Assembly: GCA_030731745.1 (NCBI GenBank)
Contig: JANQTJ010000014.1
Coordinates: 41,331-105,330 of the forward strand
Source: Flaviramulus sp.
GTDB taxonomy: Bacteria; Bacteroidota; Bacteroidia; Flavobacteriales; Flavobacteriaceae
Reading direction: 5' to 3'
DNA: 64,000 nucleotides
Shown one piece after another: positions 20,263-62,720 of the stretch. Position 1 is the first letter of the stretch, and every line of letters begins with the position of its first letter. The position numbers and the translations under genes are program-made. The notes beneath the pieces are model-generated. The model made no database searches and had not been told where the DNA came from. It saw only the letters and a program-made list of their open reading frames with translations.

Positions 20263-20383
20263 TTTTTGAATATTTATTTATGAGTTAAATTGTTTATTCT
20301 TAATGCCAAAATTTAACTCTAAACCCTAGCCATGATTAACTCAGTTATTGTACTTTCTTTTGGTTTTGTTGAATGCTTCGCAT

Positions 20384-20434
20384 TTGAAGCGGCATCTTTT
20401 TTTTCAAAAATATAGCGTAATGCAGGAAATAGCA
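20384..20434 (+). repeat. dispersed intergenic repeat, degenerate copy A
   Basis: The core GAAGCGGCATCTTTTTTTT, followed by ATATAGCGTAATGC, aligns with copy B at 57049-57129 (GAAGCGGCATCCTTTTTT, ATATAGCGTAAAGC). The outer TTAGGGAT and GCCCGACCC ends are missing or eroded. It lies between hmgA and hppD. Confidence 0.7.
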
Positions 20435-56575: not shown

Positions 56576-57019
56576 TTAATAAACTTTTTTAATGACATTA
56601 GTAACGATACCCCATATAATAAAATCGTTTTCTTGTGTGATTTTTATACTCGGGTAATCGGGATTTTCAGGTTGCAGCCAAAGCCCTTCTTTATCTATTT
56701 TTAACCGCTTAACGGTAAACTCACCATCTAAAAAACATACCGCAATTTTATTATTAGCAGGCTCTAAACTTTTATCTATTACTAGTAAATCATTATCGTT
56801 AAGCCCTGCTCCTACCATAGATTGCCCACTAACACGTGCAAAAAAAGTAGCTTCTTTATTTTTAACAAGCTCGTTGTCTAGAGACAAACGTTCTTCTGTA
56901 AAATCTTCTGCAGGTGAAGGAAAACCAGCGGAAATTCCGGTATTAAAAAAATTAGCTCCTGAGTTTTTTGTGATTTTTGGAGTAAAAAAGATTAGATTTT
57001 CAGATTTGTGAAGTATCAT
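56576..57019 (-). CDS. umuD: S24 family peptidase, UmuD-like polymerase V subunit
   Basis: A 147-residue LexA/UmuD-type self-cleaving protein. The cleavage site Ala31-Gly32 lies in TGISAGFPSPAEDF, the nucleophile Ser67 in SGQSMVGAGLNDND, and the general-base Lys104 in GEFTVKRLK. It has no DNA-binding domain, so it is UmuD-like and not LexA. After RecA-stimulated cleavage, UmuD' joins UmuC to form an error-prone polymerase. Here it is downstream of umuC, the reverse of the E. coli order, and separated from it by 111 bp holding a dispersed repeat. Confidence 0.92.
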   Translation of the reverse strand: MILHKSENLIFFTPKITKNSGANFFNTGISAGFPSPAEDFTEERLSLDNELVKNKEATFFARVSGQSMVGAGLNDNDLLVIDKSLEPANNKIAVCFLDGEFTVKRLKIDKEGLWLQPENPDYPSIKITQENDFIIWGIVTNVIKKVY

Positions 57020-57048
57020 TTTTTTATCGTGGTTTTATTTTTTTTACG

Positions 57049-57129
57049 TTAGGGATTGAAGCGGCATCCTTTTTTGAGGTACGAAAAAAAGATATAGCGT
57101 AAAGCCCGACCCTTTTGGGTAACGCCTAA
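57049..57129 (+). repeat. dispersed intergenic repeat, copy B (between umuC and umuD)
   Basis: Begins TTAGGGATTGAAGCGGCATC, continues with a T-run, GATATAGCGTAAAGCCCGACCC and ends GGGTAACGCC. It shares its core with copy A (20384) and its ends TTAGGGAT, GCCCGACCC and AACGCC with copy C (62637). It is GC-richer than the surroundings. Confidence 0.8.
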
Positions 57130-57130
57130 A

Positions 57131-58390
57131 TTAACATTTTACTTTTATTATATTATTAATATTGGTTGTATATCTTGGAGATAATCGCTCCTGACGCATT
57201 TTCCAAGTACGTTTTAAATCTTGATTCCCTAATCTTATTTTATGATTTTTGTATTTTTTATTTAAGCCATCAATAGCAAACATGAGCGATTTATGTTTTG
57301 GGTTTTCATGCTCAAAAATATCCAACTGATAATTATCATTAGGAACTAATCCGGCAACTATAACACCCGCGCGCTTATATTTTACACCACTTTTAAAAAT
57401 AGTTTTAACTGCTTTTACAGCTTCATTACTTATAATTAATGATGAATCTGTTGGATAAGGTAAACTTACTTGTACGCTCGCTCTATGCTGCTCTAAATCT
57501 TTTTTATGTCTATCACTTCTCAACATAACAATGATGACGTGACAACTAGAACCTTGTTTACGTAGCTTCTCTGAACAATGGGTTGCAAACGTAGAGATAC
57601 GTTCTTTAATATTATCAATATCTGAATAGGTATATTCGAAACTTCGAGTGGTAGCGATAACTTTTTTGTTTTTGGGTTCATCTAATCGTATTTTAGAATC
57701 ACCTTCTAAATCCTTTTTAAGTTTCCATTCGGTTATTGAAAAATTTTTACGAACCCAATCGTCTGGTAGCTGTATAAAATCTAATGCTGTTTTGCAGCCT
57801 TTAACATGAAGCCTTTTTGCTAAACGACCGCCAATACCCCAAACATCTTCAATTTTAGTCCATTTTAAAGCTTTAATTCTTTTTTCATCAGAATCTATTA
57901 CATAAACACCGTTGGTCTCTTTAGGAAATTTTCTAGCAATTTTATTGGCTACTTTACTTAAAGCTTTTGTTGGCGCTATACCCACGCACGTAGGAATACC
58001 TGTCCATTTTAAAACGCGTTTTCGTATTTGAATGCCGTAATCATTAAAATTATAATTATCAAATCCTTTAAACTCCAAAAAAGCTTCATCAATACTATAA
58101 ACCTCAAGATTGGGTGTAAAATGTTCTAAAATTTTCATTACCCTACTACTCATATCTCCGTACAAAGGATAATTAGACGAAAACACTTGGATGTTATTTG
58201 CTTTACAAAAAGCTTCCCATTTAAAAATAGGAGCTCCCATAGGCAAACCAAGAACTTTAGCTTCATCACTTCGTGAGATAACACAGCCATCATTATTGCT
58301 TAAAATAGCGATGGGTTTATGACGTAAGTTAGGGTTAAAAACACGTTCACAAGACGCATAAAAATTATTACAATCTACTAGGGCATACAT
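57131..58390 (-). CDS. umuC: Y-family DNA polymerase, UmuC-like
   Basis: A 419-residue translesion DNA polymerase subunit. The catalytic core is intact: ALVDCNNFYASCERVF with the first metal-binding Asp, AILSNNDGCVISRSDEAK, and VYSIDEAFLEF with the second acidic pair. The little-finger region and the UmuC-specific C-terminal zone (LMFAIDGLNKKYKNHKIRLG) follow. Length matches UmuC (422). The start ATG is 5 nt after a TATCTTTA -7 variant, suggesting a leaderless transcript. umuD follows downstream after a repeat-bearing gap. No LexA box could be recognised by eye. Confidence 0.95.
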   Translation of the reverse strand: MYALVDCNNFYASCERVFNPNLRHKPIAILSNNDGCVISRSDEAKVLGLPMGAPIFKWEAFCKANNIQVFSSNYPLYGDMSSRVMKILEHFTPNLEVYSIDEAFLEFKGFDNYNFNDYGIQIRKRVLKWTGIPTCVGIAPTKALSKVANKIARKFPKETNGVYVIDSDEKRIKALKWTKIEDVWGIGGRLAKRLHVKGCKTALDFIQLPDDWVRKNFSITEWKLKKDLEGDSKIRLDEPKNKKVIATTRSFEYTYSDIDNIKERISTFATHCSEKLRKQGSSCHVIIVMLRSDRHKKDLEQHRASVQVSLPYPTDSSLIISNEAVKAVKTIFKSGVKYKRAGVIVAGLVPNDNYQLDIFEHENPKHKSLMFAIDGLNKKYKNHKIRLGNQDLKRTWKMRQERLSPRYTTNINNIIKVKC

Positions 58391-62619: not shown

Positions 62620-62636
62620 TAAACTTTGCTTTTGTG

Positions 62637-62720
62637 TTAGGGATAGCAGCGTAAAGCCATAGCGAGGAACGAGCGCGGACTTGGAGCGAATAGCCCGACC
62701 CTATAGGAAACGCCCAAAAT
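62637..62720 (+). repeat. dispersed intergenic repeat, copy C
   Basis: Begins TTAGGGAT and ends GCCCGACCC...GGAAACGCCC like copy B (57049), but the interior differs (AGCGTAAAGCCATAGCGAGG, then GAACGAGCGCGGACTTGG). It is strongly GC-rich for this genome. It sits between the BtuB-like and cupin genes. Confidence 0.75.

Follow-up and report, generated by a model that had tools for sequence, protein, structure and literature searches.

Full-length Flavo-1 repeats of Flavobacteriaceae form a three-way junction and are probably mobile DNA elements

The 64,000-nucleotide window analyzed here is part of a Flaviramulus genome (G000; 2.36 Mb, 75% complete) and contains a complete, 88-nt copy of the Flavo-1 repeat at 57043-57130 on the + strand. 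On one side is a UmuC-like Y-family polymerase gene from the open reading frame list (57131-58390, - strand; PF00817 and PF11799), and its stop codon at 57131 directly adjoins the 3' end of the element at 57130. A UmuD-like S24 peptidase gene (56576-57019, - strand; PF00717) is located on the other side. The gene order of this stretch (56576-58390), umuC then umuD with a Flavo-1 copy in between, is unusual. The Rfam covariance model RF01705 matches positions 57042-57115 with 54.5 bits, above its cut-off of 42 bits. Model R1, built from 19 copies of the Flaviramulus genome aligned without structure (alignment A1), gives the element 95.2 bits. The first-pass annotation had described the repeat as lacking an accepted name; it is Rfam family Flavo-1. 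Matches of other Rfam families in the window at E<5 were at chance level and were rejected.

The 57043 element belongs to subtype A and is composed of three arms, all on the + strand. P1 pairs CGTT (57047-57050) with AACG (57121-57124); its consensus, GCGTT/AACGC, has compensatory changes among 113 copies. The P2 arm (57052-57107) begins with GGG/CCC, an A.G mismatch (57055.57104), TT/AA, and a GAA/GTA loop (57058-57060 / 57099-57101). It continues with GC/GC, a GGC/ATA loop, ATC/GAT, and a T-run paired with an A-run, and ends in the apical tip GAGGTACGA. P3 is a short hairpin (57109-57120), ACCC-TTTT-GGGT, that is supported by covariation.

Three copies sharing sequence blocks had been noted in the window, at 20384, 57049, and 62637, and two of these are real elements. 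The copy at 62631-62718 (+ strand) is complete and of subtype B, with the P2 tip AAAGCCATAGCGAGG...GCGGACTTG. It scores 31.7 bits with RF01705, under the cut-off, and 75.1 bits with R1. The ends TTAGGGAT, GCCCGACCC, and AACGCC are common to it and the 57049 copy, and it lacks GAAGCGGCATC and ATATAGCGTAA because its P2 tip is a different one. The third copy (20375-20433, + strand) shares only GAAGCGGCATC and ATATAGCGTAA, which are central P2 blocks, and the element ends are absent. With 22 bits (E of 4.2 against Rfam and 0.04 in a whole-genome search) it is weak, under the cut-off, and at best a degenerate or partial relative of Flavo-1 that retains the P2 core. Two instances of the end motif GCCCGACCC-N2-14-GGNNACGCC are present in the window, and 100 shuffles produced none. 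There are nine exact copies genome-wide and none of a reversed control pattern, and a chance origin of the motif is excluded.

Flavo-1 is a large family. R1 finds approximately 41 copies in the Flaviramulus genome (E<=1e-4), and only 19 are above the Rfam cut-off, so that the full-length definition roughly doubles the number detected. Matches were found in 96 of 151 genera of Flavobacteriaceae, well beyond the fewer than ten copies and three isolated loci that would have spoken against the early description. That description had the repeat as dispersed, intergenic, typical of Flavobacteriaceae, structured, and mobile-like, with conserved ends and a variable interior, and all of this was borne out. 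Across the Bacteroidota, Flavo-1 is concentrated in Flavobacteriaceae with rare matches elsewhere. A complete, single-contig genome (G072) has 47 copies. In G275, a genome of the same class from another family, the 5' half occurs 43 times, in full, small elements of B type where read.

When the copies of the Flaviramulus genome are read with their flanks, conservation extends past both ends of the Rfam model. It includes TTTGCGTTA ahead of the GGG on the 5' side and GA-CCC-nnnn-GGG-TAACGCCCAAA on the 3' side. The full unit of ~90 nt is a three-way junction of P1, P2, and P3 (RCCC...GGGY). In A1, 88.6% of cells are paired under this fold, and the covariation is 0.277 vs 0.104 for shuffled and at most 0.066 for slid alignments. 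A second alignment (A2), of 113 copies from G072 and three Tamlana genomes, gives 0.343, compared with 0.115 when shuffled and no more than 0.057 when slid, with changes on both sides in 19 of 23 pairs and strong covariation in all arms. A2 was fitted to the model, and A1 is therefore the cleaner test of covariation. Between copies, the base of P2 switches among GGG/CCC, AGG/CCT, GCG/CGC, and ACG/CGT, and P1 among GCGTT/AACGC, GCGCAA/TTGCGC, GTGTT/AACAC, and GCATT/AATGC. The base of P3 in G275 is A-T in 12 and G-C in 14 of 35 copies, and never A.C or G.T. Two predicted folds reproduce the three-way junction exactly: that of the window copy (57043) as DNA, and the minimum-energy structure of one long-P3 copy as RNA. 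Folding energies of single sequences reach significance only for L056, which has a long P3 (z -3.1); most copies have z between -1.5 and +0.9. The fold thus rests on covariation.

The interruptions of P2 are conserved as well. Its single mismatch is A.G in 100, G.A in 11, and T.G in 2 of the 113 copies. The first 3x3 loop is GNA/GNA in ~95% of the copies that have this loop, with the middle base free, and the second is purine-rich, either GGA/GNA or, in the first subtype, GGC/ATA. Purine loops of the GNA/GNA type are stable in RNA and DNA alike. Among core pairs, G.T outnumbers A.C (20 vs 2, p=1e-4), which identifies the + strand, as written, as the strand that folds. The rarity of G.T beside Watson-Crick exchanges would be no less compatible with DNA than with RNA.

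The interior of the element is modular. Among the 113 copies, the P2 tips are of interchangeable types (A, A', B, B', C, and D) and the P3 hairpin has many lengths. Tips can differ at one orthologous site, as in L058 (A) and L105 (C). They also differ between orthologous copies L101 (B') and L122 (A), which have an unusual base, CATGTGTTAG.GGTTG, in common. The apical loop GAGGNACGA, or one close to it, is present in 42 of 113 copies across subtypes with different stems and is a possible recognition site.

Another subtype, nearer the Rfam consensus, has other ends (TAGCCCCGAT...GCGGGA, ...GCTTCAAA) and is represented by L010 and L018 in the Flaviramulus genome and L103 in Tamlana. Several Tamlana copies (L082, L084, L087, L092, and L150) have a second, palindromic repeat, CCTGCC(A/T)NCCGGCAGGCAGG-like, inside the 3' strand of P1, always after TAAC. 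In one Tamlana genome (G153), the downstream flank of L046 (G153:C28:150600-151300) contains a ~90-nt repeat, GTTCTCGATACAACGCTCC...CACTTCGAGTGA, which is present dozens of times in that genome, both in tandem and dispersed. In the same genome, a Flavo-1 copy lies just upstream of a probable RNase P RNA (L086:1750-1900, G153:C32), and this site is empty in G151.

Several observations bear on mobility. Conservation stops sharply at TGCG and CCCAAA. Two copies in G072 (L136 and L137) have identical 62-nt cores in unrelated flanks, and other pairs (L163, L164) differ by one or a few bases. Such identical and near-identical copies at unrelated sites, together with the 43 copies in G275, of one subtype where read, point to precise, transposition-like spread, and the family has spread to another family of bacteria. 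A comparison of two Tamlana species shows one site that is empty in one of them (L049/L147) and another with a decayed remnant (L061/L150); no empty site in this comparison has a junction that can be aligned to the base. No flank duplication was clearly above the shuffled expectation at any offset tried. None of the Flavo-1 sites read carries an element-borne gene, and in G275 each of the 43 5' halves is part of a small element, as established by pattern for 35 and by reading for the other 8. No transposase was found near close pairs or outlier copies; a MocA-type oxidoreductase, a protein without matches, and a nearby HaeIII nuclease were found instead. Reverse transcriptases are not associated with copy number (8 of 26 high-copy genomes vs 29 of 125 others, by hand count).

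With the balance tipped somewhat in its favor, Flavo-1 is probably a non-autonomous, ~90-nt, single-strand-folding, REP/MITE-like mobile DNA element of intergenic regions that is largely kept by vertical descent. One strand would fold into the closing stem P1, the long P2 with its GNA/GNA-type purine loops, and the short P3. A trans-acting enzyme would recognize this fold, more likely in single-stranded DNA than in RNA, and make copies that insert into AT-rich intergenic DNA. Copies would then be purged from promoters and survive beside gene ends, and their interior modules would be exchanged between copies. More tentatively, Flavo-1 could be the founding example of a mobile element class of its own. 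Such a class would be defined by a single-strand three-way junction of Watson-Crick and sheared purine pairs, a candidate trans-acting copying enzyme, no target duplication, and a fold later kept by selection at fixed gene junctions across genera.

The strongest rival is a local function at gene ends. Here, Flavo-1 would be a cis-acting structured element, of RNA or DNA, that protects or ends transcripts or isolates neighboring genes, for example, and its mobility would be ancient and incidental. It is supported by long retention at the same site and in the same orientation. Where both neighboring genes are syntenic between genera, Flavo-1 is usually present too. Between the Flaviramulus genome and G072, ten syntenic loci have the element, as does L037 (G072 copy L122:19623, added outside the scripted table), and one does not. 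Tamlana-based comparisons give ~10 with the element and 2-3 without. Absences are under-counted roughly fourfold because the G072 stretches were chosen around elements, and the corrected share of common sites is roughly one half to three quarters. Identity is 0.86 between orthologous copies and 0.72 between random pairs. The changed pairs of orthologous copies comprise 39 compensated, 12 G.T-type, and 24 broken, and part of the 39 stems from swapped P2 tips. Retention across genera with compensatory pairs exceeds the needs of a purely selfish repeat; it suggests either some function at the site or repair of copies from one another.

The placement of copies also speaks for a local role. For the 3' end of Flavo-1, 40 of 67 cases have an opposing stop codon within -5 to 11 nt; for the 5' end, the count is 8 of 61. 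The window copy (57043-57130) follows this rule, and p=5e-8 for the difference is optimistic because orthologous copies are not independent. In sampled G275 copies, the corresponding counts (4 of 10 vs 1 of 7) are too few to separate targeting from retention. Among 141 copies, 55 are antisense to co-directional neighbors, 40 are sense, 31 lie between convergent genes, and 15 between divergent genes. Divergent (promoter) sites are depleted and convergent ones enriched. However, retention of harmless insertions would leave the same classes of sites. The housekeeping genes next to the conserved sites (pheS, rpsO-pnp, trxA-dnaE, hemJ, metF, gpsA, and rarA) are unrelated and have no function in common, and sense copies are as well paired as antisense ones. 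The excess of antisense copies does not favor the structured 3' element, read in sense, that the first-pass annotation had offered. A T-run precedes and an A-run follows the P2 tip, the reverse of an intrinsic terminator, and the sequence after the element's 3' end has no conserved T-run. No clear orientation rule relative to replication was seen, and the GC skew of G072 is too weak to call replichores. A primary function at gene ends is considered possible but rather unlikely.

Flavo-1 may act as a folded RNA, and Rfam files RF01705 under type 'sRNA'. Weinberg et al. 2010 list it as a probable RNA that is not cis-regulatory (PMC2864571), and a 2022 review places it with the bacterial "small RNA" families of highest abundance and gives no function (PMC9029176). 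A stand-alone small regulatory RNA family would agree with constraint on one strand and with the shared apical loop. It is nevertheless disfavored and improbable, since dozens of copies per genome lie at functionally unrelated positions, the promoter motif TAnnTTTG occurs at background rate ahead of sense and convergent copies, and no conserved sequence was found upstream. Without a promoter ahead of the copies, the small RNA reading that had been offered for the window copies finds no support. In the F. psychrophilum transcriptome, Flavo-1 matches are sense and antisense alike, and they frequently fall outside transcripts, with no clue to function (PMC9723704). Also disfavored, and very improbable, is a REP or REPIN moved by a RAYT (Y1) transposase, which would be short, folded, intergenic, abundant, and free of target duplication, as Flavo-1 is, since the fold is no REP hairpin, Y1_Tnp (PF01797) is absent from the Flaviramulus genome (weak evidence alone because the genome is 75% complete) and from single-contig G072 despite its 47 copies, and the RAYT-like transposase suggested at the outset does not track high copy number (p=0.2, 151 genomes).

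As a mobile DNA element, Flavo-1 resembles several known systems. Like REP, BIME, and REPIN sequences, it is a short, folded, non-autonomous intergenic repeat that lies close to gene ends and numbers dozens per genome. It differs in its three-way junction with covariation in all arms, where these have a simple hairpin, in having no link to a Y1 transposase, and in copies that stay at one site across genera. Like MITEs, it has a short terminal inverted repeat (GCGTT/AACGC with compensated variants), sharp ends, a variable interior, and no gene. Unlike MITEs, it has no target-site duplication, no parent insertion sequence was found (G275 was searched), and its fold is strand-specific with conserved non-canonical pairs. 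The attC sites of integrons are imperfect hairpins, variable in sequence and conserved in structure, that have variable tips and are recognized as one folded DNA strand. The resemblance of Flavo-1 to attC appears to be structural only; the core motifs and their direction differ.

With the Rfam entry itself, the full-length element shares its sequence family and P2 core. The Rfam model has 76 positions and one arm only with both ends unpaired, whereas P1 and P3 close the junction here, and many copies of other subtypes score under its cut-off. The entry says nothing of mobile behavior. A literature search for a named dispersed repeat of flavobacteria returned nothing besides this entry, and no description of the three-way junction was found in the Flavo-1 literature covered, which included the main text of the 2010 paper. 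The name is already known, and the full architecture and behavior are absent from Rfam and from the literature found. If most copies are mobile structured DNA, its count among abundant bacterial small RNAs and the sRNA annotations of flavobacteria mislead. With the full-length definition, it becomes possible to test directly which enzyme moves the element and why its fold is retained in place for so long.
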